In this document: in pieces, positions 3,921 to 64,000 of the stretch
Numbering within the stretch: position 1 is the stretch's first letter
Layout: the number at the start of each line of letters is the position of its first letter
NCBI GenBank assembly: GCA_035236585.1
Contig: CP141130.1
Coordinates: 32,375,501-32,439,500, forward strand
Direction: 5' to 3'
DNA: 64,000 nt
Source: Warburgia ugandensis
Taxonomy: Eukaryota; Streptophyta; Magnoliopsida; Canellales; Canellaceae
Translations under genes and position numbers: made by a program
The notes under the pieces: model-generated
Seen by the model: the letters and a program-made list of their open reading frames with translations, nothing else
Databases searched by the model: none
Told to the model about the DNA's origin: nothing

Positions 3921-5993
3921 TCCAATTTAGAGGATGAGAGTGAATGTAAGAAGGAAAGTGATTAGAAAGTTGCTCTCCTTGTTAGGGATTCAAGAAGGTC
4001 ATAAAAAGGAAAGAAGAATGGAGAAAAGAATAAGAGCTTCAAAAACTTCAAAGTAGGACCCCAATGCTTGCTACGAATGTAAGTAATGTAGCCACATCAA
4101 GTAGATCTCCCTCTTTTGAGCAATAAAAAAAGCCAAAGAAAAAAGCACTAGCTACAACTTTGAGTGGTGAAGATTAAAGCTTTACATCCAAGAGTCAAAG
4201 TGAAGAAGTGGACAATATTTGCTTCATGGATAAGAGAGATGATGAGAGTGAACATGAAGTATGTAAACATTTTACTTTTAAATAGCTCAAAGATTCTTTT
4301 TGATGATGTTGTAAAAGAGTTAAAAAAAAACTTCACTCTATAAATAGTTTCTATTTCAAAACTCACTTACGAAACACATGATTTGAGAAGTGAAAAATGA
4401 GAGCATGATTGGAAAATTGTGAAATGGTACTTTGAAGCATGGACTTGATGATTTTTATAGTTGAAAATGAAAAAAGAATGTTTGAATGTTAAACTTGAAG
4501 GTCTAAAAAAGAGTAAAACATTTCTTTTTAGAACATTAATGATGAAAAGAATGTAATTCAATCACAAAATAATTAAAAAAAAACTCCCATGTTTCCAAGA
4601 AACCCATATTTCAAACCTTTCACTCCTACTTACCTCCATACTCTTCTTATAGACCAAAAATGGATGATCTATGGGTTGTTAAAGGTTTTACTATGTGTAC
4701 TATCTCTTATGGGCCCAAATTACAAGTTTGGCCACAAAAATTTTACAACTAACTCTTGTGATATAGGTGTTCTTAAAGTCCAATGCATAAAAACCCCTTT
4801 TGGTTTCTTGATAGTGGATACTTTGTGTCAGTGATTGGTGACAAAATCCAATTCTCAACATTAGAACTTAAAAGTGAAGGCTTTGTCACATTTGAAGACA
4901 ATGGAAAAGTGAAGTTCATTAGTAATGGTAATTTTAAAACTCTTCCACTTGCATAAATTGGTTTTTCATCTTATTAGTATTAGTCAATTATGTGATGATG
5001 GATAAAGAGTAAAATTCAAGTATTCTTTATGCTTATTGTTGATAACTACGACAACTCTATATGTTTGTAGAACATAAAGTTTGAAATATGTATACTTTTT
5101 ATCTTGATTGTTTGGATGAATCTCTTAACAAATACTTTTCACAGAAGTCTAGCCTATATTAGCATGCATCAGTCTAAAAATAATTCAAGAAAATACCTTA
5201 TTGTTGGTTTACCAAAACATTTTTTTTTAGAAAGAGAAACTTTTCAACTCTTTCCTACAAGGAAGGTATACAAAGCTCCTTTCAAACCAAACAATGTTGT
5301 TTCTAACAAAAGACCCCTTTTCAAATGTTGCATCTTGATTTTTTAGGACGAACCAAGAGTACTAGCCTTGGTGGTTCATTTTTCCTTGTAATTGTTGATG
5401 ACTATTCCATATTCACTTTGGTAAAATTTCTTGCTCAAAAGGATCAAACGTTTAAAAGGTTTTAAAAACTTTGCAAAAAGCTTCAAAATGAAAAAGGTTT
5501 CAAGATGTCATCTCTTAGGATTGACAATGATGGTGAGTTCAAAAGTAAGGATTCTGAAAATTTTTGTGAAAACATGGTATTGAGTATAAATTTTTTTCCC
5601 CAAAACTCCTCAATGAAATGGCTTCATTGAGAGAAAGAATAAGTTAGTTAAAGAATTTATAAGAACCATCTTTTGTGACAACAATTGCCAATGTATTTTT
5701 TGAGCACAAACCATGAACACAGCTTTTTATATTTGGAAAAGGACAAAAACTGAATGTTTTATATTTTCATGGCTTTGGATGAAAATGTTCATTTTGAACA
5801 ACGACAAAGATAACATAGAAAGATTTAAGCTAAATTTTGTGGTCATATTTCCCTTGTTTATTAGATGAATAGTAAGGCATACCAAGTATTCAATTTGAGA
5901 AATCTTGTAGTTGAAAAATCTATTAATGTTGGCTTTTTGTAAGTTTAACCCTTCTTTTGGAAAGCAACCTAGCTATGATGATGATGAGGATGA

Positions 5994-5998
5994 CCCAA
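5994..5998. repeat. Target-site duplication, left copy
   Basis: cccaa immediately before the gypsy LTR terminus TGTCACGACC. The same five bases follow the far LTR at 18107-18111, which defines 5999-18106 as one integration event. Confidence 0.9.
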
Positions 5999-8684
5999 TG
6001 TCACGACCCGGGTTTTTAAGTGATGCAATGTTAATAAAAAGGCGAGATCTCTTGTTTTATAAATATGAAATGCATGAAATTCTTTTTCATTTGGAAAACA
6101 ACCTTTCATAAAAACCCCGAGTGTGAAAACTCATTCTCAATCTATTTAGTCATGGCAAAGTTTTAAATCAATAATGTTCCCAAGAAAGTGTTAGTCACAG
6201 CCCCAGCTATTAAAGAGTAACTACAATCAAGTAACATTGAAAGATAAGATAGGGGTCTACTTACTTGTGCTTGGTCTATTCCTCCTAGTGCAAATGTCCC
6301 TTGACCTTAGGTATTTACTTTGTATCTGAAAAATGTTGGAGATTGGGTGAGTATATAATATACTCAGTAGGGCCTATTACTACTAGTTTTATAAATGCAT
6401 GAGATGTTTTAAAATCATATGCTCATTCATTCAAAACATGCGTATTTTTGAATACTCGAGTTCAATATTGGTATAAGAATCCATAATCAACTGAAATTCA
6501 AAATATGCGTATGGTTGAATACTCAATTTCAACATCAGTATAAGAATCCATAATCAACTGAAATGCAAAATAACTTAAAAGATCACATAATTCCAAAAGT
6601 TAAAGTATCATATATACGATAACATCATGAGATGAGATGCCTCATGGAGTCCAACTCATGGACCCCTAGTATGGTATGGTCGACCAACCTCATATCATGC
6701 TACATGAAATGCACATCAAACCATAGGGTCCACTATGCCCACGGCCTCCTCGCCGTGTGGTCCCCGGGTACCTGAGGACACTTGGTCATAGCCTCCACGG
6801 GGCCTATGACACGCCGACCCAGTGCCGTGACACCAGTGATAGCCCCTTGTACCACATGCAGTTGACGTAGGGACTTACCTCTTTTTGGGCGTGGTACCCA
6901 TCCACCTATTAGTGGTAGAGGCCGGGTGGCCAACCCAGACCCCTCGGCATAGCACCCACGGGCTTACTTGCCCAAATCACATAAGATAAGTCAAAACCTG
7001 TTAAAACTTGTCCTCTTTTGGGTCCCTCACAACTGCCTGGCCCTCGGCACTCCAGCGTCTTTTGGAAACCCTCAAGGACATGCAATCTTTGCAGTACGTA
7101 AATCATGCAATGCATGCAGTCGTTTGCAACACATGTATGTGCATAATGTATATGCAGTCATTCCAAAACATGGCTATTTACAAAGCATTTATCATGCATG
7201 CTGAATTTATTCATACAAATCACATGCAAATCAAGTCATATATCCAAAACATATGTTCTCAAATAACAATAGTTCTTTTAAAAGGATCTAATAGTGATAG
7301 AGCACCTACCTGACTAGGTCGCGTTCACCCTCTTGTCCTCGTACACTCCTGAACATGGTTTGGGGACTTAAGGTTAGTTTAACCTATCTTTAATGGGTTT
7401 AGAGCATTTGGGTCTCATTACTTAGGCATTAGGGGTCCATCCCTATGCCTATGGGTGTCCTAAGGTCCTAATTAGGCCTTGGTATTCTCAGTTTCCCAGA
7501 GTCCTAGCGGTCACGCGCCATCATCCTATTCTAAGGGTCATGCCCTACTTTTATTGGGCTTTGATTATGGATTTTATAGTTTAGATGTGTTCGCGTCGTT
7601 GATACGGACACAACGCCTTTTGCAGCGCCTCAATCGGAGCTCTAGATCTCAAGTTATAAGCGTTTTAACGTTGCATGTACATATAGTCTTAAAGAAAAGA
7701 AAAAAAAAAAAAAAAGGAGGAATGCTAGGGCGCTGCGCGTCTGCGACGTGCGCCCAGCATTCTTAAGAACCAAAAAAAAAAAACGACGCCTCGCTAGTGC
7801 ACTACGCGTCTGCGGTGCACGCCTCAGCGGGCGCGTCTGAAGACGCGCGAGACGACGCCGCTCGTCGTTCCTTTAGGGGCGCGTCCAGGGACGCGCCCGT
7901 TTGGTTTTTTTCCAAATGGCGTCGACGTGGGACGGTCCTGTTGGATCGTCCTGCTTGTTAGTGACTTGGGTCGTCCTCAGGTCACCCTGGTTCGACCCTG
8001 TCGAACCAGTGCGGTGTGGGGACGTCCCAGGGGTCTTTGTGGCTCCCCTGGAGGCCTATTCTGCATGGTTTTTCATGGAAAAACCTAGGGAAATCGTTCC
8101 TGGAACTATGGTGGAGATGGGTTTTGGGTTTTTTCGTGCGTACCTGCTTCGTCGGTGGTTTTCTCTCCACGTTTTCCCCCCTTGCTCACTGCTTCATGAC
8201 TGGTTTTCTCCAAGGCTTTTGGGCTGCCATTAGAGGCACCCAAGAGCTCTATTTATAGGGCTTTTACAGAGGGTTCTAGAGGGTTTCTAACCGCCTTTGA
8301 ATGGCGGTGGGGAACCCTCTGGAATGGCGGTGGTTTCTTCTTGAAACACCGCCGTTCCAGAAACCTCTAGGAGGTTGAAGACGACGGGGTGCCCGTATCA
8401 AAACGGGCACCTGTGTTTTTCAGGTTAAATCGTTTTTGGGAAATTTACAGTTTTGCCCCTGATCTTCAAAGGGCCATATCTTGCTCATTTTAACTCCGTT
8501 TTGGGTGATTTTGGTCTCGTTGGATTCCTTTTTCCGAGACGCATCTAATGGAACCACTTTTAGTACCAAATTCCTGGGTTTAGTTATGGTGACTAGTGAA
8601 ATGACCAAAATGCCCTTTTCTTTAAAATTGAACTTTTTATTGCTAAACTTGGAATTTCAATATTACAAAATTGGAGTCATTACA
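5999..8684 (-). mobile_element. 3' LTR of the double-cassette gypsy element
   Basis: It runs from tgtcacgacccggg to ggagtcattaca on the + strand (TGTAATGACTCC...CCCGGGTCGTGACA on the minus strand), 2686 bp. It has inverted TG/CA termini and pairs with 15448-18106. A TATA-like box (ctatttatag at 8250-8259; CTATAAATAG on the minus strand) lies about 430 bp inside the upstream end and is a likely promoter. A GC- and CpG-rich block (about 7720-7930) sits downstream of it in the transcript direction. Open frames inside the LTR are not genes. Confidence 0.9.
8250..8259 (-). promoter_or_regulatory. Candidate TATA box in LTR
   Basis: CTATAAATAG on the minus strand, conserved in the partner LTR at about 17669-17678. 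It lies in U3 on the strand that is transcribed toward gag. Confidence 0.55.
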
Positions 8685-8702
8685 TTCTTACCCCCTTAGG
8701 GG
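8685..8702 (-). other. Polypurine tract of the gypsy element
   Basis: On the minus strand it reads cccctaagggggtaagaa directly before the LTR start TGTAATGACTCC, the normal position of the plus-strand primer. Its upstream side touches 8 bases of a primer-binding site (8703-8710) rather than pol sequence. Confidence 0.8.
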
Positions 8703-8710
8703 ATACCAAC

Positions 8711-8984
8711 TGTCGCGACCCGGGTTTTTAAGTGATGCAATGTTGATAAAAAGGCGAGATCTCTTGTTTTATAAATATGAAATGCATGAAATTCTTTTTC
8801 ATTTGGAAAACAACCTTTCATAAAAACCCCGAGTGTGAAAACTCATTCTCAATCTATTTATTCATGGCAAAGTTTTAAATCAATAATGTTCCCAAGAAAG
8901 TGTTAGTCACAGCCCCAGCTATTAAAGAGTAACTACAATCAAATAACATTGAAAGATAAGATAGGGGTCTACTTACTTGTGCTT
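8711..8984 (-). mobile_element. Terminal LTR fragment next to cassette 1
   Basis: 274 bp matching the gag-proximal end of the full LTRs (tgtcgcgacccggg to cttgtgctt). It stops where the full LTRs continue with ggtctattcc, and cassette sequence begins instead. It is nearly identical to 12079-12351. Confidence 0.9.
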
Positions 8985-9101
8985 ACTTATGTCTGGTTTC
9001 CATGTGATTACTTCTTGTAGTAGCTTCCATCTCTTGGTTAATAAACTTGCACACATCCCTTGGGTTTTTCTGCTTAATGCATCAGCTACCACATTAGCTT
9101 T

Positions 9102-9458
9102 TCAAGGGTGATAATGAATGGAGAAGTCATAGTCTTTTAAGTATTCCATCCATCTTCTTTGTCGCATGTTTAAGTCTTGTTGGGAAAAGATATATTTAAG
9201 ACTCTTGTGATCTGTAAAAACTTCAAACTTTTCCCCATATAAATAATGTCTCCATATTCGCAAGGCAAAGACTATGGCTGCTAATTCCAAGTCATGCGTT
9301 GGGTAATTGACTTCATGCTTCTTGAGTTGTCGAGAAGCATAAGCGATCACCTTTCCATGTTGCATAAGTACGCAGCCTAGCCCTTGTTGCGAGGCATCGC
9401 TATATATCTCAAATCCGCCACTTCCTGAAGGTAAGGTAAGGACAGGTGCGGTAGTCAA
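9102..9458 (-). CDS. RNase H domain of pol, cassette 1
   Basis: A 118-residue open stretch of the gypsy RNase H domain. It includes [18 protein letters not shown] (first catalytic Asp region), [20 protein letters not shown] (Glu region) and [13 protein letters not shown]. In the family it degrades the RNA of the RNA-DNA hybrid during reverse transcription. The same 118 residues occur at 12469-12825. The downstream linker (VVADALSRK-type, on the side toward 9000) is present, but no integrase follows. Confidence 0.85.
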
Positions 9459-10796
9459 CCTTCTTTTTAGTTCTTAGAAGCTTTCCTCACATTTATCAGT
9501 CCATTCAAACCTTGTGTCTTTCCTGGTCAGCTTAGTTAGAGGTAAAGCCATTTGTGAAAAACCTTCGATGAATCTTCTGTAATATCCAGTAAGTCCTAAG
9601 AAGCTTCTTATTTACGTGTTGTCTTAGGTCTTTCCCAGTTCTGTACTGTTTCAACCTTAGTAGGGTCAACTGCTATGCCATCTTGAGATATAATGTGTCC
9701 TAAGAAATTAACCTTTTCCAGCCAAAACTCACACTTACTGAATTTTGCATATAGCTTGTGTGCTCATAGGGTGCTTAATGTTATCCTTAGATGTTCCATA
9801 TGGTCTTCAGGAGTCTCAGAATATATTAAGATATCATCCACAAACACTATGATGAATTTATCTAAGTACTCCTTGAATACCCTATTCATGAGATCCATAA
9901 ACGCGGCTGGAGCATTAGTCAAACCAAAGGACATCACTCTGAATTCATAATGGCCGTATCGAGTCCTGAAGGCTGTCTTGGGGATATCTTCTTCTCTAAC
10001 TCGAAGTTGATGGTACCCTGATCGTAGATCAATCTTAGAGAAGACTCTAGCTGACTGAAGTTGATCGAAAAGACCATCGATTCGGGAAGAGGGTACTTAT
10101 TTTTAATGGTGACCCTATTCAGCATTCGATAGTCTACGCACAATCTCATCGAGCCATCCTTTTCTTAACAAAAGGACCGGAGCTCCCCACGGAGACACGC
10201 TAGGTCGTATGAACCCTTTGTCAAGTAGTTCCCTGTGGCGGGTCTTCGATTCTCTTAATTCTGCAGGAGCCATTCGGTAAGGAGCTTTGGAAATGGGGGA
10301 AGTACCGGGTATAAGGTCAATGATGAACTCAATTTCCCTTGGTGGAGGTAGACCTGGTAAGTCCTCGGGGAATACATCGTGGAATTCTCGAACAACCTCG
10401 ACATTCTCAAGCTTTGGTTGGGGATTCTTGACGGATTCTATCTTGGCTAAGAAGAAGGGGCATCCTTGAGCAATGTGTTTAACTGATTTCATGGCAGAGA
10501 TAACACATGCTCCCGGAATAATCCTTTCTCCCTTGGAGGGTGAAAGTGTCTCTATTAGGTAGGGTAAAAGTGACACGCTTCTGACGACAATCAACTAAGG
10601 CTTGATGAAAGGCTAGCCAGTCCATACCTAGGATGATATCAAAGTCATTCATATCTAAGTGGACAAGGTTGGCATGTAACAAATGGTCCTTAATCAATAT
10701 GGGGACATCCTGGAGATAAGAATAAGTGGGGAGTGAGCGGCCTACAGGAGTCATGACTTCTAGAGTGAAGTCTAGGTCCTGTGGTATAATGTCCAA
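9459..10796 (-). pseudogene. Protease and reverse transcriptase region of pol, cassette 1
   Basis: Minus-strand stretches match the RT and protease of cassette 2: LRLVDYRMLN-type and KNKYPLP motifs near 10100, the [18 protein letters not shown] linker near 10300, and [18 protein letters not shown] (retropepsin-like C-terminal part) near 10650. The region is broken and does not give one open frame. RT copies element RNA into DNA in the particle; the protease matures gag-pol. Confidence 0.85.
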
Positions 10797-10958
10797 GGAT
10801 GATGCAAATTCCCGGGATATGAAAGAATGAGTGGAGCCTGTATCAAATAGAACTTTTGCAGGTGTATCATAGATAGAAAGAATACCTTCAACGACTGCGT
10901 TTGATGCTTGGGCTTGACTGGAAGTCAGGGCAAAGACACGTCCTTGGCTTTTTGGAAC

Positions 10959-11937
10959 TTAATCTTCTTTACGCTCTTGCACTTTCCTTTTGGACAAGTT
11001 GTTAGAAAAATGTCCTAATTCTCCACAACTATAGCAAGTGATGTTGGAAGTGGGACATGGTCTGCTTGGATAGTTTCTGTTACACCTAGGGCATGCCTTC
11101 CAGTCTGGTCTTCTTCCTTTGTTTTCAAACGGCTTCTTAAACGGTGGCCTAGGTCCAGATGACTGAAAGGGTCTCTTTCCTTTGTTCTTCATAGTGTTGA
11201 TGTTCTTAGTTTCTCTTATTGCCTGGTTCCTTTGATAATCTTTTTCATATAGGGAGGCCATTTCTCTTTGCTTTGGCTCTTGTGGAAGGTTGGAAACCTA
11301 GAACTGCATTCACGAGTCCTGGGTTGAGTCCGTCTACAAATCTTTCAGCTGCATCTTCTTCATCAGCACAAGCACGGGGTGCAAATCTTCGGAGGTTGAT
11401 GAATTTACTTTCATACTGTTGGACGGTCATATTTCCTTGTTCTAAGTCCATAAATTCCTTTTCCTTCTGTTTCCTTATATGTTTAGCATAATATTTGTCA
11501 TTAAAGACCTTTTTAAACTCTTCCCATCCTATTGTTTCTTGCTGATCAAAATAAGTTCTTTCTCCTGGTTCCCACCAAAAGGTAGCCTCTCCTCTAAACA
11601 AAAATGTGGCCATGGGTACTTTTCTTTCTTCAGCTATGTTCATGGCCTTAAATATCTTTTCAATATCAATTAACCATTTTTCAGCTGTGGATGCTTCATC
11701 TTCTCCTGTGAATGAGGGAGCTAGTTTCTGGAACCTTTCTAACTGAACCTCACTCCTGTCTATTGTTTTATCAGGGGAAGGATCTCGGGGGGTAGGAGTT
11801 TGGCTATGATTGTTCATGTATTGTCCCATGTTCTGTAAGAATTGCTGAAATAGCTCAGCCATCCCGTTGCCCGACCTAGTGGAGTCCACTGGTGGGGCTT
11901 CAGGTCTTGGAGCATTGCTTCCCTTCTTTCTAGGCAT
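10959..11937 (-). pseudogene. gag, cassette 1
   Basis: Starts MPRKKGSNAPRPEAPPVDST at 11937. It contains the Retrotrans_gag core (LERFQKLAPSFTGEDEASTA, TAEKWLIDIEKIFKAM, FWWEPGERTYF, LRRFAPRACADEEDAAERF) and ends with a CCHC zinc knuckle (CYSCGELGHFSNN...) near 11000-11050. It is almost identical to 14329-15306 in cassette 2 but looks broken. Confidence 0.85.
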
Positions 11938-12064
11938 CTGTAATCACAAGGCAATTCACAGAAATCTTAGTTTATGTTATCCTATTACCCCTTTCTCTTT
12001 CATGGATGAAACTTGATTATAAGTTATTCTCCTCATAACTGGGCTGTGAGTAACGTTAAACCGT

Positions 12065-12076
12065 GCTCTGATACCA
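12065..12076 (-). other. Primer-binding site between cassettes
   Basis: TGGTATCAGAGC on the minus strand, complementary to the 3' end of plant initiator-Met tRNA, separated by gtt from the LTR terminus at 12079. An internal copy like this is not expected in an ordinary LTR element. Confidence 0.85.
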
Positions 12077-12078
12077 AC

Positions 12079-12351
12079 TGTCACGACCCGGGTTTTTAAG
12101 TGATGCAATGTTGATAAAAAGGCGAGATCTCTTGTTTTATAAATATGAAATGCATGAAATTCTTTTTCATTTGGAAAACAACCTTTCATAAAAACCCCGA
12201 GTGTGAAAACTCATTCTCAATCTATTTATTCATGGCAAAGTTTTAAATCAATAATGTTCCCAAGAAAGTGTTAGTCACAATTTGACTATTAAAGAGTAAC
12301 TACAATCAAATAACATTGAAAGATAAGATAGGGGTCTACTTACTTGTGCTT
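12079..12351 (-). mobile_element. Terminal LTR fragment between the two cassettes
   Basis: 273 bp of the gag-proximal LTR end (tgtcacgacccggg to cttgtgctt). It is the middle copy of the LTR sequence and divides the two internal cassettes. It breaks off at the same base as the copy at 8711-8984. Confidence 0.9.
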
Positions 12352-12468
12352 ACTTATGTCTGGTTTCCATGTGATTACTTCTTGTAGTAGCTTCCATCTC
12401 TTGGTTAATAAACTTGCACACATCCCTTGGGTTTTTCTGCTTAATGCATCAGCTACCACATTAGCTTT

Positions 12469-12825
12469 TCAAGGGTGATAATGAATGGAGAAGTCATAGT
12501 CTTTTAAGTATTCCATCCATCTTCTTTGTCGCATGTTTAAGTCTTGTTGGGAAAAGATATATTTAAGACTCTTGTGATCTGTAAAAACTTCAAACTTTTC
12601 CCCATATAAATAATGTCTCCATATTCGCAAGGCAAAGACTATGGCTGCTAATTCCAAGTCATGCGTTGGGTAATTGACTTCATGCTTCTTGAGTTGTCGA
12701 GAAGCATAAGCGATCACCTTTCCATGTTGCATAAGTACGCAGCCTAGCCCTTGTTGCGAGGCATCGCTATATATCTCAAATCCGCCACTTCCTGAAGGTA
12801 AGGTAAGGACAGGTGCGGTAGTCAA
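12469..12825 (-). CDS. RNase H domain of pol, cassette 2
   Basis: 118 residues identical to the copy at 9102-9458 ([55 protein letters not shown]). Identity between the cassettes is higher than expected for old duplicates, so the duplication is recent or the copies have been homogenised. Confidence 0.85.
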
Positions 12826-13101
12826 CCTTCTTTTTAGTTCTTAGAAGCTTTCCTCACATTTATCAGTCCATTCAAACCTTGTGTCTTTCCTGGTCAGCTT
12901 AGTTAGAGGTAAAGCCATTTGTGAAAAACCTTCGATGAATCTTCTGTAATATCCAGTAAGTCCTAAGAAGCTTCTTATTTCTGTGACTGTCTTAGGTCTT
13001 TCCCGCTCTGTCTTGTTTCAACCTTAGTAGGGTCAACTGCTATGCCATCTTGAGATATAATGTGTCCTAAGAAATTAACCTTTTCCAGCCAAAACTCACA
13101 C

Positions 13102-14166
13102 TTACTGAATTTTGCATATAGCTTGTGTGCTCATAGGGTGCTTAATGTTATCCTTAGATGTTCCATATGGTCTTCGTGAGTCTCGAGAATATATTAAGAT
13201 ATCATCCACAAACACTATGATGAATTTATCTAAGTACTCCTTGAATACCCTATTCATGAGATCCATAAACGCGGCTGGAGCATTAGTCAAACCAAAGGAC
13301 ATCACTCTGAATTCATAATGGCCGTATCGAGTCCTGAAGGCTGTCTTGGGGATATCTTCTTCTCTAACTCGAAGTTGATGGTACCCCGATCGTAGGTCAA
13401 TCTTAGAGAAGACTCTAGCTGACTGAAGTTGATCAAAAAGATCATCGATTCGGGGAAGAGGGTACTTATTTTTAATGGTGACCCTATTCAGCATTCGATA
13501 GTCTACGCACAATCTCATCGAGCCATCCTTTTTCTTAACAAAAAGGACTGGAGCTCCCCACGGAGACACGCTAGGTCGTATGAACCCTTTGTCAAGTAGT
13601 TCCTGTAACTGGGTCTTCAGTTCTCTTAATTCTGCAGGAGCCATTCGGTAAGGAGCTTTGGAAATGGGGGAAGTACCGGGTATAAGGTCAATGATGAACT
13701 CAATTTCCCTTGGTGGAGGTAGACCTGGTAAGTCCTCAGGGAATACATCAGGGAATTCTCGAACAACCTCGACATTCTCAAGCTTTGGTTGGGGATTCTT
13801 GACGGATTCTATCTTGGCTAAGAAGAAGGGGCATCCTTGAGCAATGTGTTTAACTGATTTCATGGCAGAGATAACACATGCTCCAGAATAATCCTTTCTC
13901 CCTTGGAGGGTGAAAGTGTCTCTATTAGGTAGGGTAAAAGTGACACGCTTCTGACGACAATCAACTAAGGCTTGATGAAAGGCTAGCCAGTCCATACCTA
14001 GGATGATATCAAAGTCATTCATATCTAAGTGGACAAGGTTGGCATGTAACAAATGGTCCTTAATCAATATGGGGACATCCTGGAGATAAGAATAAGTGGG
14101 GAGTGCCTGGCCTACAGGAGTCATGACTTCTAGAGTGAAGTCTAGGTCCTGTGGTATAATGTCCAA
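13102..14166 (-). CDS. Protease (C-terminal part) and reverse transcriptase of pol, cassette 2
   Basis: A 354-residue open stretch. The first ~60 residues end the retropepsin-like domain ([19 protein letters not shown]). A linker with [19 protein letters not shown] follows at about residues 140-160. The RT core covers about 180-335, with [55 protein letters not shown] (first catalytic Asp), [15 protein letters not shown] and [11 protein letters not shown] (catalytic Asp pair, F/YVDD box). Polymerase for element cDNA synthesis in cytoplasmic particles. Upstream protease sequence (DTGS-type box near 14210) lies toward gag. Confidence 0.88.
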
Positions 14167-14328
14167 GGATGATGCAAATTCCCGGGATATGAAAGAATGA
14201 GTGGAGCCTGTATCAAATAGAACTTTTGCAGGTGTATCATAGATAGAAAGAATACCTTCAACGACTGCGTTTGATGCTTGGGCTTGACTGGAAGTCAGGG
14301 CAAAGACACGTCCTTGGCTTTTTGGAAC

Positions 14329-15306
14329 TTAATCTTCTTTACGCTCTTGCACTTTCCTTTTTGGACAGTTGTTAGAAAAATGTCCTAATTCTCCACAACT
14401 ATAGCAAGTGATGTTGGAAGTGGGACATGGTCTGCCTGGATAGTTTCTGTTACACCTAGGGCATGCCTTCCAGTCTGGTCTTCTTCCTTTGTTTTCAAAC
14501 GGCTTCTTAAACGGTGGCCTAGGTCCAGATGACTGAAAGGGTCTCTTTCCTTTGTTCTTCATAGTGTTGATGTTCTTAGTTTCTCTTATTGCCTGGTTCC
14601 TTTGATAATCTTTTTCATATAGGGAGGCCATTTCTACTGCTTTGGCTACTGTGGAAGGTTGGAAACCTAGAACTCTGTTCCTGAGTCCTGGGTTGAGTCC
14701 GTCTACAAATCTTTCAGCTGCATCTTCTTCATCAGCACAAGCACGGGGTGCAAATCTTCGGAGGTTGATGAATTTACTTTCATACTGTTGGACGGTCATA
14801 TTTCCTTGTTCTAAGTCCATAAATTCCTTTTCCTTCTGTTTCCTTATATGTTTAGCATAATATTTGTCATTAAAGACCTTTTTAAACTCTTCCCATCCTA
14901 TTGTTTCTTGCTGATCAAAATAAGTTCTTTCTGCTGGTTCCCACCAAAAGGTAGCCTCTCCTCTAAACAAAAATGTGGCCATGGGTACTTTTCTTTCTTC
15001 AGCTATGTTCATGGCCTTAAATATCTTTTCAATATCAATTAACCATTTTTCAGCTGTGGATGCTTCATCTTCTCCTGTGAATGAGGGAGCTAGTTTCTGG
15101 AACCTTTCTAACTGAACCTCACTCCTGTCTATTGTTTTATCAGGGGAAGGATCTCGGGGGGTAGGAGTTTGGCTATGATTGTTCATGTATTGTCCCATGT
15201 TCTGTAAGAATTGCTGAAATAGCTCAGCCATCCCGTTGCCCGACCTAGTGGAGTCCACTGGTGGGGCTTCAGGTCTTGGAGCATTGCTTCCCTTCTTTCT
15301 AGGCAT
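14329..15306 (-). CDS. gag polyprotein, cassette 2
   Basis: 325 residues starting MPRKKGSNAPRPEAPPVDST, the first Met after the primer site and the same start as in cassette 1. The N-terminal ~65 residues are low-complexity. The Retrotrans_gag core covers about 70-230 (LAPSFTGEDEASTAEKWL, FLFRGEATFWWEPAERTYF, VQQYESKFINLRRFAPRA). A basic linker (KRPFQSSGPRPPFKKPFE) and one CCHC knuckle (CYSCGELGHFSNNC, about 300-313) follow. It forms the virus-like particle and binds RNA. The stop is followed closely by protease-region sequence, as in Ty3/gypsy elements where gag and pol are linked. Confidence 0.9.
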   Translation of the reverse strand: MPRKKGSNAPRPEAPPVDSTRSGNGMAELFQQFLQNMGQYMNNHSQTPTPRDPSPDKTIDRSEVQLERFQKLAPSFTGEDEASTAEKWLIDIEKIFKAMNIAEERKVPMATFLFRGEATFWWEPAERTYFDQQETIGWEEFKKVFNDKYYAKHIRKQKEKEFMDLEQGNMTVQQYESKFINLRRFAPRACADEEDAAERFVDGLNPGLRNRVLGFQPSTVAKAVEMASLYEKDYQRNQAIRETKNINTMKNKGKRPFQSSGPRPPFKKPFENKGRRPDWKACPRCNRNYPGRPCPTSNITCYSCGELGHFSNNCPKRKVQERKED

Positions 15307-15433
15307 CTGTAATCACAAGGCAATTCACAGAAATCTTAGTTTATGTTATCCTATTACCCCTTTCTCTTTCATGGATGAAACTTGATTATAAGTTATTCTC
15401 CTCATAACTGGGCTGTGAGTAACGTTAAACCGT

Positions 15434-15445
15434 GCTCTGATACCA
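15434..15445 (-). other. Primer-binding site of the gypsy element
   Basis: TGGTATCAGAGC on the minus strand, three bases from the 5' LTR terminus at 15448. It matches the 3' end of initiator-Met tRNA, the usual primer for this group. Confidence 0.88.
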
Positions 15446-15447
15446 AC

Positions 15448-18106
15448 TGTCACGACCCGGGTTTTTAAGTGATGCAATGTTGATAAAAAGGCGAGATCTC
15501 TTGTTTTATAAATATGAAATGCATGAAATTCTTTTTCATTTGGAAAACAACCTTTCATAAAAACCCCGAGTGTGAAAACTCATTCTCAATCTATTTAGTC
15601 ATGGCAAAGTTTTAAATCAATAATGTTCCCAAGAAAGTGTTAGTCACATTTCAGCTATTAAAGAGTAACTACAATCAAGTAACATTGAAAGATAAGATAG
15701 GGGTCTACTTACTTGTGCTTGGTCTATTCCTCCTAGTGCAAATGTCCCTTGACCTTAGGTATTTACTTTGTATCTGAAAAATGTTGGAGATTGGGTGAGT
15801 ATATAATATACTCAGTAGGGCCTATTACTACTAGTTTTATAAATGCATGAGATGTTTTAAAATCATATGCTCATTCATTCAAAACATGCGTATTTTTGAA
15901 TACTCGAGTTCAATATTGGTATAAGAATCCATAATCAACTGAAATTCAAAATATGCGTATGGTTGAATACTCGATTTCAACATCAGTACAAGAATCCATA
16001 ATCAACTGAAATGCAAAATAACTTAAAAGATAACATAATTCCAAAAGTTAAAGTATCATATATACAATAACATCATGAGATGCAATAGATGCCTCATGGA
16101 GTCCAACTCATGGACCCCTAGTATGGTATGGTCGACCAACCTCATATCATGCTACATGAAATGCACATCAAACCATAGGGTCCACTATGCCCACGGCCTC
16201 CTCGCCGTGTGGTCCCCGAGTACCTGAGGACACTTGGTCATAGCCTCCACGGGGCCTATGACACGCCGACCCAGTGCCGTGACACCAGTGATAGCCCGTT
16301 GTACCACATGCAGTCGACGTAGGGACTTGCCTCTTTTTGGGCGTGGTACCCATCCACCTATTAGTGGTAGAGGCCGAGTGGCCAACCCAGACCCCTCGGC
16401 ATAGCACCCACGGGCTTACTTGCCCAAATCACATAAGATAAGTCAAAACCTGTTAAAACTTGTCCTCTTTTGGGTCCCTCACAACAGCCTGGCCCTCGGC
16501 ACTCCAGCGTCTTTTGGAAACCCTCAAGGACATGCAATCTTTGCAGTACGTAAATCATGCAATGCATGCAGTCGTTTGCAACACATGTATGTGCATAATG
16601 TATATGCAGTCATTCCAAAACATGGCTATTTACAAAGCATTTATCATGCATGCTGAATTTATTCATACAAATCACATGCAAATCAAGTCATATATCCAAA
16701 ACATATGTTCTCAAATAACAATAGTTCTTTTAAAAGGATCTAATAGTGATAGAGCACCTACCTGACTAGGTCGCGTTCACCCTCTTGTCCTCGTACACTC
16801 CTGAACATGGTTTGGGGACTTAAGGTTAGTTTAACCTATCTTTAATGGGTTTAGAGCATTTGGGTCTCATTACTTAGGCATTAGGGGTCCATCCCTATGC
16901 CTATGGGTGTCCTAAGGTCCTAATTAGGCCTTGGTATTCTCAGTTTCCCAGAGTCCTAGCGGTCACGCGCCATCATCCTATTCTAAGGGTCATGCCATAC
17001 TTTTATTGAGCTTTGATTATGGATTTTATAGTTTGGATGTGTCCGCGTCGTCGATATGGACACAACGCCTTTTGCAGCGCCTCAATCGGAGCTCTAGATC
17101 TCAAGTTATAAGCGTTTTAACGTTGCATGTACATATAGTCTTAAAGAAAAGAAAAGAAAAAAAAGGAGGAATGCTAGGGTGCTGCGCGTCTGCGACGTGC
17201 GCCCAGCATTCTTAAGAACCAAAAAAAAAAACGACGCCTCGCTAGTGCGCTACGCGTCTGCGGCGCGCGCCTCAGCGGGCGCGTCTGAAGACGCGCGAGA
17301 CGACGCCGCTCATCGTTCCTTTAGAGGGCGTGTCCAGGGACGCGCGACGTGGGACGGTCCTGTTGGATCGTCCTGCTTGTTAGTGACTTGGGTGGTCCTC
17401 AGGTCACCCTGGTTCAACCCTGTCGAACCAGTGCGGCCTGGGGACGTCCCAGGGGTCTTTGTGGCTCCCCTGGAGGCCTATTCTGCATAGTTTTTCATGG
17501 AAAAACCTAGGGAAATCGTTCCTGGAACTGTGGTGGAGATGGGTTTTGGGTTTTTTCGTGCGTACCTGCTTCGTGGGTGGTTTTCTCTCCACGTTTTCCC
17601 CCCTTGCTCACTGCTTCACGACTGGTTTTCTCCAAGGCTTTTGGGCTGCCATTAGAGGCACCCAAGAGCTCTATTTATAGGGCTTTTACAGAGGGTTCTG
17701 GAGGGTTTCTAACCGCCTTTGAATGGCGGTGGCGAACCCTCTGGAATGGCAGTGGTTTCTTCTTGAAACACCGCCGTTCCAGAAACCTCTAGGAGGTTGA
17801 AGACGACGGGGTGCCCGTATCAAAACGGGCACCTGTGTTTTTCAGGTTAAATCGTTTTTGGGAAATTTACAGTTTTGCCCCTGATCTTCAAAGGGCCATA
17901 TCTTGCTCATTTTAACTCCGTTTTGTGTGATTTTGGTCTCGTTGGATTCCTTTTTCCGAGACGCATCTAATGGAACCAATTTTAGTACCAAATTCCTGGG
18001 TTTAGTTATGGTGACTAGTGAAATGACCAAAATGCCCTTTTCTTTAAAATTGAACTTTTTATTGCTAAACTTGGAATTTCAATATTACAAAATTGGAGTC
18101 ATTACA
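15448..18106 (-). mobile_element. 5' LTR of the double-cassette gypsy element
   Basis: 2659 bp, tgtcacgaccc to tcattaca on the + strand. It is aligned end to end with 5999-8684, with scattered base differences and small indels of a few percent by eye. It includes the TATA-like ctatttatag (about 17669-17678) and a CpG-rich block around 17170-17350. Confidence 0.9.
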
Positions 18107-18111
18107 CCCAA
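18107..18111. repeat. Target-site duplication, right copy
   Basis: cccaa directly after the LTR terminus tcattaca, matching 5994-5998. Confidence 0.9.
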
Positions 18112-18480
18112 TGGAAAACTTGGAGAAGCAGTCACAAATAAGGTGCAACAACAACAACAACAATAATGATGATATGATAAACCTTCTCAACAACATGATA
18201 ATCAGCATTAAACATTGCCAAAGGAATGGAGATATGCTCATGGACATCCTAAGGAGCTCATCATAGATGATCCAATCTTCAAGGTAAAACATCAATCTAA
18301 TTTGAGAAGTTTTTATAAAATTCTACATTATTGTCTCAATTAGAATGCTGAGAGTGCTTGGGAAATAGATCATGACATAGATTGGCTAAACATCATGATT
18401 GAGAAATTTAACCAATTTGAGAGAAATGGTGGAATAGCCCTTGCACATAAACCCAAGGATCACTTGGTTATTGAATTCAT
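18112..18480 (+). mobile_element. Ty1/copia element, internal region, right part (fossil)
   Basis: Copia sequence resumes after the gypsy insertion. A CAA-rich stretch is followed by PKEWRYAHGHPKELIIDDP (about 18218-18274), the conserved lead-in to the copia RT, then IEKFNQFERNGGIALAHKPK (about 18400-18460), which corresponds to the start of the RT domain. Nothing copia-like is seen after about 18480, where Tat-type LTR sequence begins, so most of the RT and all of RNase H and the 3' LTR are not in the window. Confidence 0.8.
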
Positions 18481-24660: not shown

Positions 24661-24676
24661 ACCCTTCTGTTTTCAT

Positions 24677-24934
24677 ATGATGCAAATTTCATAAAAAGGT
24701 GAGATCTATTGCTTTAGAAATATGAAATGCATGAAAATCTTTTGTTTTGGAAAGCAATCTTTCGTATAAAACCCCGAGTGTCAAAACACATTTTCAAATC
24801 ATATAGCCATGGCATAGTTTTAAATCAACTCTATTCCCAAGAAAGTGTTAGTCACAGCCCTAGCTACAGAGAGTAACTACAATCAAGTAACATTCACTAA
24901 AAGATAAGGTAGGGATTTACTTACTTGTACTTAA
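24677..24934 (-). mobile_element. Old terminal LTR fragment of the CGACCCGGG gypsy family
   Basis: About 258 bp, a diverged copy of the gag-proximal LTR end seen at 8711-8984 (gatgcaaatttcataaaaag, aaaccccgagtgtcaaaac, cccaagaaagtgttagtcac). It ends in cttgtactt, the same breakpoint as the fragments in the double-cassette element (cttgtgctt). Confidence 0.8.
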
Positions 24935-25792: not shown

Positions 25793-28118
25793 TGTAATGC
25801 CCTGAGCAATTTACGCTATTTTTGCATCTATTTAACAAAAATCAATTGGACATTTTATAGGAAATGAACCGTGTTAAATGCTTTACTTTATTTAAAATAT
25901 TGAATGAAGGAATTTATGAGAAAACTTGGTACCATTAGATTCTACTAGAAAAATGGAATCCAACGCCTCAAAGAATGCCGAAAACGGAGTTCGTATGAAG
26001 AAGTTACGGCCATTTAAAGATTAGGGGCAGTTTTGTAATTTATCTTTAAAAAACGAAAAAGATGAAAAACGCAGGGGGCCGTTTTGATAACGGCACCCCC
26101 TGTCTTCTTCCTCATCCCAATTTGTTTAGAAACCCCCTCTCCCGATTTTTCTAGAAACACCAGCACCACGTCTGCAAGGCAGTGCTAGGGGAAATGGCGG
26201 CACCGCCATTGGCAGCACCGCCTTTCATCCTCTATAAAAAAACCCCTCTCCCTCTCCCTCTTCCTCCAATCATCTCCTTTCCTCCTCTTTTAGCTGTTTC
26301 AAGCTAAGGTTCCAACAATGTTTTCATCAGAAAACCCCTCCCCAGGCTTCCCTGTGATTTCCAGCACCGGCCCAGGTCTTCTCTCCAGGCCGACCAATCT
26401 CCTTTTCCTTCCACTTCTCTTTCACCTTCTTCCCTATGGCATCCTGTTGCATTTCTAGGGTTTTCGGCAAGCGTAGAGGGAAACACACCACCGGAAGAAG
26501 GGCACCATGTTGGGGCTGCCCAGGTAGGTTTTCTCCCCCTCTCTCTCCGTTTTACTTCCTTCAGGCCGGATCCATGGCATATCTGGTCTTTTTTTCGGCC
26601 TGAAGATGCTGGACTCGTGATGGGTTTGATAACCCATTGAAGAAGACGACTCAGGGATGCTAGGTGTAGCACACTCCCTGGGGCGATCCTCTCACGTGCA
26701 CACCGCATGTGGGCGCAGTCCCAGTTTCGACCGAGACACACATGCGCCCTGGGAGCTGAGGTGCACTGTGCCTGTGCCAAAGACATGTTTGCACGATGCC
26801 ATTGGCATGCACGTGGCATGCGAACGCAGTTCCTAGCGTGGCCTTCAGGTGTGCATGACGTACGGGTGTGAGTCCTAGTTCTACCAGGGCACGCACGTGT
26901 CCCAGGAACTATGGGCGCAGGGCTCGTATGGACAAAAGTTGGCTTTTCCGTGATGATTGTAACACTAAAAATCCAATTTTTCATGTTTAAATGATATACA
27001 GGAGCCATAAAGGTACTTTAGGACTCGTCTACAAGAGGGACACGAGCTAAGTGACGACAATCGAGGTAGGTGTTCTATTGCTACTAGACTTTTCAAAAGA
27101 ACCCATGATGCTTTGAGAATGCATGTTTTCAGTCATGATTGCTTTTCTAATGTATGTTTTAAGTTTTTAAGTTAAATGTCCTATCTTTATGCGTATATCA
27201 TATAAACTTATGTTACATCCTTATGCACATGACCTATTTACATGAATTGATTTCATAAATGAACTTAGCATGCATATGAAAAATACATTGCGCATATATT
27301 GTCAAGACATGTGTTACATGCATAGACATGTTTTGAAAAAGGATTCTTATCTTCATGATACATGCGTAGACATGTTTCAAAAAGTGTAGCCTTAGCTGAT
27401 GAGGGCGGGCCAGAGAGAGCTGGCAGGCTTCTAGGCTATCAGGCTTCTAGGTTGTCAAGGTTATGACTTTGAATACGATACTAGCATGAGCAGATTTTAT
27501 GCATTACATGCATGTTTTGCAATCGATTGCATAAATTGCATGATTTGTGATGATTGAGCTTTGGCTTTATCTTTAGATGCTTTTGGGCTAATAAGCTCAT
27601 GGGTGCTATGCCGAGAGGTTTGGGGTGGCCTCCCAGCCTCTACCACTATAGGTGGAAAGGGTACCACACCAAAAAGGCTTGTCCTTACTTTGATTGATGT
27701 GTAGTAATGAGGACTACCATTGGTGTCACGGCACCCGATCGAAGTGTCATATGCCCACTCACGAGTAGAAGATGCCTCAGGAAATGTTAGTGCTACAAGC
27801 AAGTAAATAAAAAAGAGACAATTACACATGTAAGTAAATACTCTACCCTTTGGACATGTATTTGTATTTATTTACAGTTGGGCTGTGAGCTATGATTGGA
27901 TAGACTTGGGAAGACATTTATGATTTCTGAAAATTTCAAAAACTACTTTGGTTGTTGTGAAAGCAAATGACACTCGGGGTTTTCAAAATGAGTTTAAAAC
28001 AAAAGATTTTCCCCTGCATTGCATTGTTTTTATAAAATGGTTTTCAAATAAGGATGCATCTCGCCTTAGGAATTAGATATTGCATTTAAAAATGCATGGG
28101 AAAACCTGGGTCGTCACA
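25793..28118 (+). mobile_element. 3' LTR of a LARD-like gypsy element
   Basis: From TGTAATGCCCTGAGC to CTGGGTCGTCACA, 2326 bp, directly after a polypurine tract. It is similar to 57317-58791 and 62292-64000. A TATA-like ctataaaaaa lies at about 26232. A GC-rich block with repeated gtgtcccaggaac / tgggagctgagg-type phrases spans about 26600-26930. The long minus-strand open frame here (26304-27008) follows this GC-rich block and has no family match that I recognise. Confidence 0.85.
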
Positions 28119-55578: not shown

Positions 55579-57316
55579 GTAGAAGGTACGCTTTATATCT
55601 ATGATAGACCTGCCAAAGTATTATTTGCACTGGTTCTACTCATTCCTTCATATCATGTGAGTTTGCTTCTTTCATGGATATTATAGTTCAAGACTTAAAC
55701 TTCTCCTTAGAAGTTATGACACTCGTAGGCAAGTCAATTTCCACACAAACATACCTCCAGGATGTTCCGATTGTAGTCAAGGGCAACCAGATGAGAGTAG
55801 ACCTAATCCACCTAAATATGACAGATTTTGACGTCATCCTTGGGATGGACTAGTTAGCCTCGCATAATGCAATAGTTGATTGTCAAAAGAAAAGGATTAT
55901 TTTTTACCTTCCCAGAGGAGAGGTGGTCTCCTTACAAGGGAGAAGAGATTATTCAGGAGCATGTGTTATTTCTATTATAAGAGCAGCAAAGCACATTGCT
56001 CAGGGGTGTCCATTCTTTATGGTTAAGATAGAAGCCACTGAAGTCACAAAGCCTAAGTTAGAGGAGGTAGATGCGGTTCATGAATTCCCAGATGTGTTTC
56101 CTAAAGACTTGCTAGGGTTACCACCAAAAAGGGAGATAGATTTTACTATTGACTTGATACCTGGCACAATCCCCATATTGAAGGTACCTTATCGGATGGC
56201 TCCAACAAAGTTAAAGGAGCTAAAGACCCAATTACAAGAGTTGTTGGACAAAGGGTTCATTATACCTAGTGTGTCTCTTTGGGGAGCACCAATCCCTTTT
56301 GTCAAGAAAAAAGATCGGTCAATGAGACTCTGTGCTAATTATAGAATGTTGAATAGGGTCACAGTGAAAAACAAGTATCCTTTACCCCATATTGATGACA
56401 TGTTTGATCAACTCCAGTCAGCCCATATCTTTTCTAAGATTGATTTACAGTCTGGATATCACCAGCTTAAATTCAGGGAGGAAGACATCCCAAAGACAAC
56501 ATTCAAAACTAGATACGGACACTATGAGTTTAAAGTAATGTCTTTTGAACTGACAAATGCACTAGCCACATTTATGGATCTTATGAACCGAGTATTCAAA
56601 GCCTATCTAGATAAATTTGTTATAGTATTTTGTGGATGATATTTTGATCTACTTTGAAACCCTTGAGGACCATAAGGAACATTTATGAGTGGTACTAACT
56701 ATACTTAGGCACACAAATTATGTGCAAAGTTTAGTAAGTGTGACTTTTGGTTGGAAAAAGTGAATTTTCTAGGTCATGTTATTTCCAAAGACAACATTGC
56801 AGTCCACCCAGCAAAAGTTGAGGCTGTAGAGAAATGGAATATGCCTAAAATAGTCATAGAGGTAAGGATTTTCTAGGGCTTGCACGATACTACCGTAGAT
56901 TCATCGAAGGATTTTCATGCATTGCCTTACACTTGACTAAATTAACTAGAAAGGACAAAAAGTTTGAGTGGGATCAGGCATACGAGGAAAGTTTCCAAGA
57001 ACTAAAGAGGTGGCTAATCACTGCACCAGTACTTACTCTACCATCTGGCAGTGGAGGATTTGAGATCTATAGTGATGCTTCTCAACAAGGGCTGGGTTGC
57101 ATGCTTATGCAAAATGGGAAAGTAACTGCATATGCTTCCAGACAATTGAGAAAGCATGAGGTCAATTACCCTACCAATGACCTAGAGCTTGCTGCTATAA
57201 TCTTTGCCTTAAAGATCTAGAGACACTATCTGTATGAAGAAAATTTTGAAGTTTTTACAGATCACAAAAGTCTCAAGTACATCTTTTCACAACAAGACTT
57301 GAACATGCGACAAAGG
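55579..57316 (+). pseudogene. Protease, RT and RNase H (first part) of the + strand gypsy element
   Basis: pol resumes with VEGTLYIYDRPAKVLF and retropepsin-type LNMTDFDVILGMD (about 55810-55850). The RT (about 56130-56640) has [56 protein letters not shown] and the end of the catalytic box region near 56630. RNase H (about 56960-57316) has [36 protein letters not shown] and [20 protein letters not shown]. It is close in sequence to the minus-strand cassettes (13102-14166) but older and broken. It stops where the LARD-like element begins; the rest of pol and the 3' LTR lie beyond the window. Confidence 0.88.
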
Positions 57317-58791
57317 TTTAACGCCCGAGCAATTTACGCTAATTTGTACATTCTATAAGAAATGGACTGTGTTGAATTTTTTACCTCATTTAAAATAGTA
57401 AAGAAGGAATTTGTGAGAAAATTAGTATCATTGGATTCTACTAGAAAAATGGAATCCAAGGCCTCAAAAATCACCCAAAACGGAGTTCGTATGAAGAAGT
57501 TACGGCCGTTTAAAGATTAGGGGCAGTTCTGGAATTTAAACAGAAAAACGAAAAAGACGAAAAATGCAAGGGCCGTTTTGATAACGACACCCCCTGTCGT
57601 CTTCCACCTCCAGATCTCTCCACAAACCCTCCTTTCATGATTTCTCTAGAAAACACCAGGGAAATGGCAGCACCGCCATTGAGGGGCACCGCCTTCTTTC
57701 CCCTATAAATACCCCATCTCCCCGCTCTTCAAAATCGCGTTTTTCCAGTCGTTTGAGACTGCGGTTTTTGGAAAATCAGAAACCCATCTCTCTGCAAATT
57801 CCGGCAATAGCCAGGCCCTAGTCTGGCCGGCCATTCTCCCATTCCCTTTCTCCTTTCTGGTCTGGCAATGGGGTTTCCCCCCTTGTTCGAGTTTTCTGGC
57901 AAGCAGGCACACCCACTGGGGAAAAAGGCCGTTCCCAGGCTACAGGTAAGCTATTCTTATCTTTTCCTCTTTGTTTTGCTTCCCCCAGGCCAGATCCATG
58001 CCGGATCTGGTCTTTTCCAGTTGTTTTCTAGCGGGGTTCCTAACCTGGGGACCACATGGCAGTGAGGTCGTGGGCATAGTCGGACCCTATGGTTTCAGGA
58101 TTTACTTGCATTGTATATGGGATGATAGGAGGTTGGTCAACCATACCAGATATCCATGAGTTGGATTTAGATGAGCATCTTATGCATATCATTATGTTTA
58201 TGATATATATATGATACTTTCGACTTGGATTATGCGATTCTTTAGTCGTCAGTATTCCGATTCGACAATGGTTTTTAATATCGATATTGAACATGGTTGT
58301 TCGAACATGCACATGTTTTAAAAGAGCATATGATTTTAAACATAGCATGCATTGCAAAACTAGTTGTGATAGACTCCTACTGAGTATAGTATACACTCAC
58401 CCTATTCTTAACATTTTTCAGGATAGTTCCATCCACGAGTAGAGGACACCTATGTTAGAGCTACGAGCAAGTGAATAAACAAAGGAGACAACTATACATG
58501 TGACTAAACTCTCTACCCTTTGGACATGTATTTGTATTTATTTACAGTTGGGTTGTGTGCTGTGACGGATAGACCTGGGGAAAAACGTTTATGATTTCTG
58601 AAGTTTTTCAAAAATCTACTTTGGCTGTTGTGAAAGCAAATGACACTCGGAGTTTCCAAAATGACTTTAAAACTAAGGATTTTCGCTGCATTGCATGATT
58701 TTTATAAATTGGTTTTCAAATAGGGATGCATCCTGCCTTAGGAATTTAGATCTTGCATTTAAAAATGCATGGAAAAACCCAGGTCATCACA
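57317..58791 (+). mobile_element. 5' LTR of the LARD-like element
   Basis: 1475 bp, ending ccaggtcatcaca. It carries the U3 module (aatccaaggcctcaaaaatc; agttacggccgtttaaagat), agggccgttttgataacgac, a TATA-like ctataaatac (57703-57712) and a tail like 27770-28118 (ctttggacatgtatttgtat). It is shorter than the partner at 62292 because the GC-rich block of that LTR is absent. Confidence 0.85.
57703..57712 (+). promoter_or_regulatory. Candidate TATA box in LARD LTR
   Basis: CTATAAATAC, about 390 bp into the LTR, conserved at about 62681-62690 in the partner LTR. Confidence 0.55.
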
Positions 58792-62291: not shown

Positions 62292-64000
62292 TGTAACGCC
62301 CGAGCAATTTACGCTAATTTGGACATTCTATAAGAAATTGACTGTGTTGAATGTTTTACCTTATTTAAAATAGTAAATGAAGGAATTTGTGAGGAAACTT
62401 GGTACCGTTAGATTCTACTCAAAAAACGGAATCCAACGCCTCAAAAATCACCCAAAATGGAGTTCGTGTGAAGAAGTTACGGCCGTTTAAAGATCAGGGG
62501 CAGTTATAGAATTTAAAAAGAAAAATGAAAAAGACAAAAAACGCAGGGGGCATTTTGACAACGGCACCCCCTGTTGACTTCCACCTCCAGATCTCTCCAG
62601 AAACCCTCCTTTCACGATTTCTCCAGAAAACATAAGGGAAATGGCGGTACTGCCATTGAGGGGCACCGCCTTCTTTCCCCTATAAATACCCCATCTCCCC
62701 CTCTTCAAAATCGCATTTTTCTAGTCGTTTGAGACTGGGGTTTTCGGCAAAATCAGAAACTCGTCTCTCTGCAAATTTCAGCAACGGCCAAGCCCTAGTC
62801 GGGTCGGCCATTCTCCCACTCCCTTTCTCCTTTCTGGTCTGGCAATGGGGCTTCCCCCCTTGTTCGAGTTTTCGGGCAAGCAGGCACACCCACCGGGGAA
62901 AAAGGGTGTTCCCAGGCTACAGTTAAGCCGTTCTTACCTTTTCCTCTTCGTTTTGCTTCCCCCAGGCCAGATCCATGCTAGATCTGGTCTTTTCCAGTCG
63001 TTTTCTAGCCGGGTTCCTGGCCGAAAAACTTTCCAAGCCGGATTGGGCCGGCCCTGCACGAACCAGGCGTCCCAAGGATGCCATGCCGAACGTGCACTTG
63101 GGACAGGGTCCCTGGGACGGGTTCCAGGTGTACGACAGTGCATACACTGTCCCAGGTGCGGCCTTCAGGTACGCGTGCGACATGGGGCACGGGTCCTGGC
63201 TCTACCAGGGTGCACGAGGTGCCCTGGGAGCTGAGACGCGCCATGCTACAAGGTTCGTCCGTGCGGTGATGCGCGCCATAGCACGTCGCTTGAGCATGCA
63301 TGTGCGAGTGCAAAATGCGGCCCCTGGCACAACCTTTGGGTGCACACACACGTGAGGCAGTCGCGGTTCAACCAGGATGCACAAGTGTCCTGGGAACTGG
63401 GACACGCGGACCTAATAAGACTCTAAAGTTTAGATCAAAGGATAAATTACAGAGTTTAACTACTGAATAGTAGATCCAGATCATAGGATCTAGCCTGACA
63501 ATGAATTAGGTAAGGTCTAAGGACCCAATAGGCAGAGCTAGTAATCTAATGACTAAATGGATTGAAATTAATAAGGACTCCTTGTATCCATTCATACCTA
63601 GGAGTTTATAAATGAGAGCCAAGGATGGGTTGAAGTGATAAAGGACGCAACTCCAGGAGACTTTGAGGTAGGTGCTCTATCGCTACTAGACTTTTTAAAA
63701 GAGCCATGATTGTTTTGAGAATGCATGTTTTAAGTATAGGTATATGACTTGTTTAGCATGACCTAATTCAGCGTACATATGATAAATGCTTTATGCATAG
63801 ATATGTTTTGAAGATAATTGCATATACATCATGCATAGATATGTTTTGCAAATAATTGCATGTACATTATGCATAGATATGTTTTGCAAACAAATGCATA
63901 TATTGCATGATTTGTGAGCATTGAGTTTTTGAAAGATTGCATGTCCTTGAGGGTTACCAAAAGACGCTAGAGTGCCCAAAAGACGCTGGGTAGGCAGTTG
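62292..64000 (+). mobile_element. 3' LTR of the LARD-like element (incomplete at window edge)
   Basis: TGTAACGCCCGAGC start right after the polypurine tract. U3 module at 62405-62510, TATA-like ctataaatac at about 62681, GC- and CpG-rich block 63030-63415 with recurring gtcctggg / ccctgggagctgagac phrases. At least 1709 bp. Overlapping frames on both strands between 62845 and 63405 come from the GC-rich block. Confidence 0.82.
63793..63906. repeat. 38-bp tandem repeat, three units
   Basis: Units start at 63793, 63831 and 63869 with atgcatagatatgttttg; each ends in an atgcatatac-like stretch. Confidence 0.92.

Follow-up and report, generated by a model that had tools for sequence, protein, structure and literature searches.

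Tandem long terminal repeat (LTR) retrotransposons that share internal LTRs have been described in rice and, by means of a pipeline, in Arabidopsis, almond and cotton (PMC11899658). There, the choice between insertion and recombination as the origin of the tandems is left open, and more complex, degenerate cases are set aside unanalysed. For complexes with a third LTR in Triticeae, template switching has been proposed (Sabot and Schulman, PMC1950507). Here, a 64,000 nt stretch of the Warburgia ugandensis genome (GCA_035236585.1, contig CP141130.1, 32,375,501-32,439,500 of the forward strand; hereafter the window) was found to contain a minus-strand Ty3/Gypsy element that has two gag-protease-reverse transcriptase-RNase H (gag-PR-RT-RNaseH) cassettes and two short LTR ends between its outer LTRs. 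The history we favour, with slightly better than even confidence, has two steps. An integrase-less single-cassette element with an internal fragment of LTR end and primer-binding site (PBS) would have come first, and its cassette would later have been duplicated by unequal recombination.

In the direction of the element the order is LTR, PBS, gag-PR-RT-RNaseH, LTR end (273 bp), PBS, gag-PR-RT-RNaseH, LTR end (274 bp) with truncated PBS, polypurine tract (PPT), LTR. All parts lie on the minus strand. The 5′ LTR (15448-18106, 2659 bp) adjoins a complete primer site, TGGTATCAGAGC (15434-15445), and cassette 1 (12352-15447) continues from this PBS with gag (14329-15312), protease-RT (13102-14328) and RNase H (12469-12840). 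The middle LTR 3′ end, termed mid (12079-12351, 273 bp), is followed by the second complete primer site TGGTATCAGAGC (12065-12076) and by the gag, protease, RT and RNase H of cassette 2 (8985-12078), several frames of which are broken. A further internal LTR 3′ end, termed int (8711-8984, 274 bp), leads into a truncated primer site (8702-8710; the spacer GT and TGGTATC). The latter is fused to the PPT and its preceding bases (CCCTAAGGGGGTAAGAA, 8685-8701), after which comes the 3′ LTR (5999-8684, 2686 bp). The initial annotation had recognised a single internal LTR piece of 273 bp; mid is indeed present as it was described, and int was overlooked. The direct duplication of about 3.37 kb that it reported is borne out at 98.4% identity over 3658 aligned positions, far above chance, and so are the RNaseH/LTR junctions at 8984/8985 and 12351/12352. 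The outer LTRs, aligned in two pieces, are 98.0% and 98.2% identical.

The hallmarks of Ty3/Gypsy elements are present (LTRs with TG..CA ends, target-site duplication (TSD), PBS and PPT), and six open frames gave the Pfam matches Retrotrans_gag, Ty3_capsid, RVP_2, RVT_1 and RT_RNaseH. Integrase is absent from both cassettes; the RNase H frame ends at 12469, and the 117 bp from there to the LTR joint are too short to hold it. Since the integrase after RNase H is missing, the copy is a defective, non-autonomous derivative of a Ty3/Gypsy element.

One TSD, the unstranded cccaa at 5994-5998 and 18107-18111, encloses the whole locus, as in canonical tandem arrays; with the TSD the locus spans C5:32381494-32393611. 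Paralogues of the host sequence that the element interrupts (window 5700-5998 and 18112-18411) lie on C1 at 97.81 Mb and on C11 at 52.85 Mb. The C1 paralogue is diverged (72%, 291/404) and runs through the insertion point without an element. The C11 paralogue (73%, 117/161) likewise crosses the point without an element, with only 24 nt on its left side. These empty sites and the TSD on both sides support the view, already taken in the initial annotation, that the whole locus is a single insertion.

The joints were read against five relatives (L012-L016), taken as 10-kb stretches, some of which stop short of the outer end of one LTR; their LTRs, as cut by BLAST, measure 2.54-2.74 kb. Between the point of departure from RNase H and the PPT, where the present locus has an LTR end instead, the relatives retain 1.45-1.47 kb, the integrase region. 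Frames of this region in L014 matched the Pfam domains Integrase_H2C2 and SH3_Tf2-1, and no chromodomain was matched in the two L014 frames scanned. We suspect the family to be of the Tekay-type chromovirus lineage, a provisional placement. All five relatives have AAGTAAGCACAAGATC at the RNase H flank, CCAAGCACAAGTAAG in the LTR and GCGAAATTCCCC before the PPT, and the bases of the PPT and those preceding it are identical in all five. The 9-mer AAGCACAAG occurs in both the RNase H flank and the LTR of the five relatives, so that both RNaseH/LTR joints sit on this 9-bp microhomology (8976-8984 in int, 12343-12351 in mid). The PBS/PPT joint sits on the 2-bp microhomology TC (8702-8703), shared with the pre-PPT sequence.

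The two RNaseH/LTR joints are identical to each other. At up to 3 mismatches, the RNaseH/LTR joint (38 nt) had two matches in the 1.12-Gb assembly, both within the locus, and the PBS/PPT joint (32 nt) had one, also within the locus; the reversed-pattern controls gave 0 matches in both searches. Other loci with the same RNaseH/LTR junction, which the initial annotation had proposed to look for, were thus not found elsewhere in the assembly at this threshold. Because the joints are confined to the locus, an internal LTR tail as a family-wide design is ruled out.

The two internal LTR ends share changes that the outer LTRs lack. At tail positions 41 and 123 both internal ends have T and A, where both outer LTRs, and all ten LTRs of the five relatives, have C and C. 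A 40-mer with A123 matched exactly only at the two copies in the locus, out of 245 places with at most one mismatch, and the remaining 243 have one mismatch, with a C in every one of them among the matches listed. No donor of the fragment was found in another copy; an element on C2 (L038) has T41 and not A123. Together with the exclusiveness of A123, the shared T41 and A123 suggest that a single internal fragment had probably acquired one or two changes by the time it was copied. The mid end has a complete PBS and T269, like the 5′ LTR, and this combination with the fragment-type changes is what an unequal crossover between position 123 and the PBS predicts. At the LTR lineage rate (30 private changes, two LTRs), 1.5 changes are expected in a fragment as old as the insertion and 0.3 in one five times younger; the probability of at least two changes is 0.46 and 0.04, respectively.

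By raw substitutions the LTRs (40/2654) and the cassettes (48/3090) are alike, and the statement in the initial annotation that the cassettes are the more nearly identical pair does not hold at this level. The differences between the cassettes fall into 25 clusters, one of which reflects the start of cassette 2 having been cut one base short, leaving 24 real ones. Eighteen of the 25 lie at CAG/CTG (5.0 expected) and 14 span several columns. Among the 41 LTR clusters, 8 are at CAG/CTG (6.1 expected) and 6 are multi-column. Some of the cassette cluster sites are scrambled in other copies of the family too. The pattern suggests systematic consensus errors in methylated repeats of the assembly, which we take to arise at methylated CHG sites in a nanopore assembly, the sequencing method being our assumption.

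After the clusters at CAG/CTG had been seen, the raw comparison was replaced by one of isolated substitutions. These number 33/2654 between the LTRs and 8/3090 between the cassettes (Fisher p 1.0e-5), and outside CAG/CTG 27/2254 and 3/2468 (p 1.4e-6). Isolated substitutions are thus some 5- to 10-fold rarer between the cassettes (odds ratios 4.9 and 10.0), and only with this separation from the clusters does the closer identity of the cassettes appear. Private changes in ten relatives gave an internal-to-LTR ratio of 0.60. When the LTR rate is scaled by this ratio, 23.2 isolated substitutions are expected between the cassettes and 8 observed (p 2.6e-4), or 17.8 and 3 outside CAG/CTG (p 2.0e-5). 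Conversion from other copies was rejected as the source of the LTR differences, 30 of 40 being private to one LTR when compared with ten LTRs of the five relatives; LTR divergence is therefore mostly ordinary mutation. For 9 of the 40 both states occur in the family, and one is unclear.

Several observations weigh against a late duplication of the cassette. Under a stricter filter, which retained columns without nearby gaps and outside CAG/CTG in any of 12 sequences, 4/2275 differences in the cassettes stand against 3/782 over the final 1.2 kb of the LTRs, with no clear separation. The excess of changes common to both cassettes expected from a late duplication was not seen, either at 8/2345 sites in the cassettes and 9/1834 in the LTRs or, under the stricter filter, at 7/2275 and 3/782. 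The LTR differences are also uneven, with 24 in the first half and 11 in the second (1310 and 1340 long, with boundaries chosen by the analyst; the total of 35 includes a pair dropped from the 33), and compared with the second half alone the cassettes give p 0.012. A reduced divergence of the cassettes could also come from gene conversion or read polishing. T41 is less specific than A123, since 10 of 87 near matches have the T, two of those at the locus. In the search for nearest copies the next matches reached 98% identity among the 40 that were scored out of 5830 candidates, and as these 40 lack cassette 2 itself, closer copies may exist. In view of the strict filter, the second-half p and the missing excess of shared changes, the recent duplication raised in the initial annotation is held to be likely on the isolated substitutions, and not proven.

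From the anatomy and the substitutions we infer both the order of events and the two mechanisms. In the first step of the two-step history, which would be the older and perhaps near the time of insertion, there would have been a single-cassette, integrase-less element of the form LTR-PBS-gag-PR-RT-RNaseH, then LTR end with truncated PBS, then PPT-LTR, its joints formed on the 9-bp and 2-bp microhomologies. The fragment could have arisen by two minus-strand template switches, as templated filler at a repaired break, or from a canonical tandem array trimmed by two microhomology deletions. Of these routes, it is conceivable, though on the unlikely side, that the fragment came to lie between RNase H and the PPT when synthesis switched templates twice, guided by microhomology, to the 5′ region of a co-packaged RNA, giving an integrase-less element mobilised in trans with a built-in homology of about 280 bp. 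If so, the built-in homology would let the coding cassette amplify in tandem without involving full LTRs.

In the later, second step, unequal homologous recombination between the 5′ LTR end of one chromatid and the internal copy of about 280 bp of the other would have given rise to a second copy of the 3.37-kb unit. The crossover product would be the middle LTR piece, of fragment type on the RNase H side and of 5′-LTR type, with the full PBS, on the other. The second internal LTR end, missed in the initial annotation, is a ready substrate for such ordinary unequal recombination.

A strong-stop origin of the 273-nt tail was also considered. A transcript start is expected 20-40 nt downstream of a TATA box. 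Six TATA-like matches (TATA[AT]A) were found in the 5′ LTR, at 2232, 1583, 617, 394, 358 and 63 nt counted back from the end of that LTR; judged by eye, the one at 2232 (CCCTATAAATAGAGC) has the best context. No match falls within the stretch 20-40 nt upstream of where the tail begins, so by motif the tail is unlikely to be a strong-stop product.

The rival that survives best, and is still rather unlikely, places the array first. A microhomology tandem duplication, or a deletion in a canonical array, would have made the RNaseH/LTR joint, recombination would have raised the number of units to three, and the third cassette would later have been lost, along with integrase, in a deletion reaching from the third PBS to the PPT. 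It draws on the same microhomology joints, and canonical tandem arrays of this family, with complete LTRs, do exist in at least three places elsewhere in the genome. These were picked for close, equal spacing among the matches listed and are not a census. The array at C5:12084000-12103999 has three complete LTRs and two internals, and that at C3:9720800-9748799 four complete LTRs and three internals (both within L044-L048). The third, at C2:28487000-28506999 (L049-L050), has four LTRs, one of them matched from position 85, and three short gag-bearing internals. At least three events are required, however, and no block of old divergence is seen between cassettes 1 and 2, the first 2000 columns having 0 isolated substitutions outside CAG/CTG and four inside (514, 1012, 1711 and 1900). 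The expansion crossover of an array-first history must therefore fall near the cassette start, where the favoured model also puts its crossover.

It is improbable that the second cassette is an assembly artefact, a false duplication from noisy long reads. The enrichment of cassette clusters at CAG/CTG makes consensus errors seem present, but each of the unusual joints coincides with a microhomology, the two internal fragments differ in how they end, one at a PBS and the other at the PPT, and long reads, if these were used as we assume, should span the 12-kb locus. Very improbable is a one-step origin in which repeated minus-strand template switching built the entire tandem before integration, akin to the first-strand switch suggested in the initial annotation: the single TSD around everything, the paralogous empty sites, the complexes proposed for Triticeae (PMC1950507) and the similar divergence of cassettes and LTRs, raw and under the strict filter, would agree with it, but by isolated substitutions the cassettes are the less diverged, the identical 9-bp switch is needed twice, substitutions common to the two internal LTR ends are missing from the outer LTRs, and no predicted transcript start coincides with the beginning of the tail.

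The family is large, with 5830 first-look candidates for the cassette. In the internals of the C2 array, gag is fused to the end of the integrase region, and the same joined form is found in L017 (C6:77371000-77380999); a shortened subfamily may exist. At L017:1996-4152, LTR 3′ ends stand in tandem at 828-bp spacing and adjoin a short gag-bearing copy, which makes L017 a further partial-LTR tandem in this family, built from a different unit. More diverged pieces related to the LTR and gag-pol of the element lie in the window at 24669-24932, 27582-27756, 55579-58425 and 63835-63976.

The two-step history suggests that a short internal LTR-end copy can replace a full LTR as a recombination site, and that ordinary steps are enough to give tandem arrays lacking full middle LTRs. 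Such loci could be missed or misread by detectors built on a full alternation of LTR and internal region. The comparison also cautions that CAG/CTG sites may inflate the raw divergence measured between repeat copies in this assembly. The exact partial-LTR tandem structure was not described in the titles or abstract openings of the literature searched.

Deletions by illegitimate recombination with microhomology are reportedly known in plant LTR elements from work by Devos in 2002. The present locus resembles them in the short microhomologies at both joints and in the loss of an internal segment, but here the lost segment was replaced by an LTR end and a piece of the primer site. With the Triticeae template-switching complexes (PMC1950507) it shares similar outer LTRs, a single TSD and two internals. 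Those complexes contain a complete third LTR, explained by switching between R regions, whereas the LTR piece here does not start at a predicted transcript start and its cassettes, by isolated substitutions, seem younger than the LTRs. The IDENTAM tandem set (PMC11899658) is alike in the single TSD, the repeated internal regions and the Gypsy element. It differs in having complete LTRs between the internals, where the present locus has a 273-bp LTR end, out of about 2670 bp in a complete LTR, and an internal region without integrase. Loci like the present one may be among the cases set aside in that paper. The locus looks like an unusual but understandable variant of the known tandem retrotransposons, with a partial middle LTR and a history that is partly readable.

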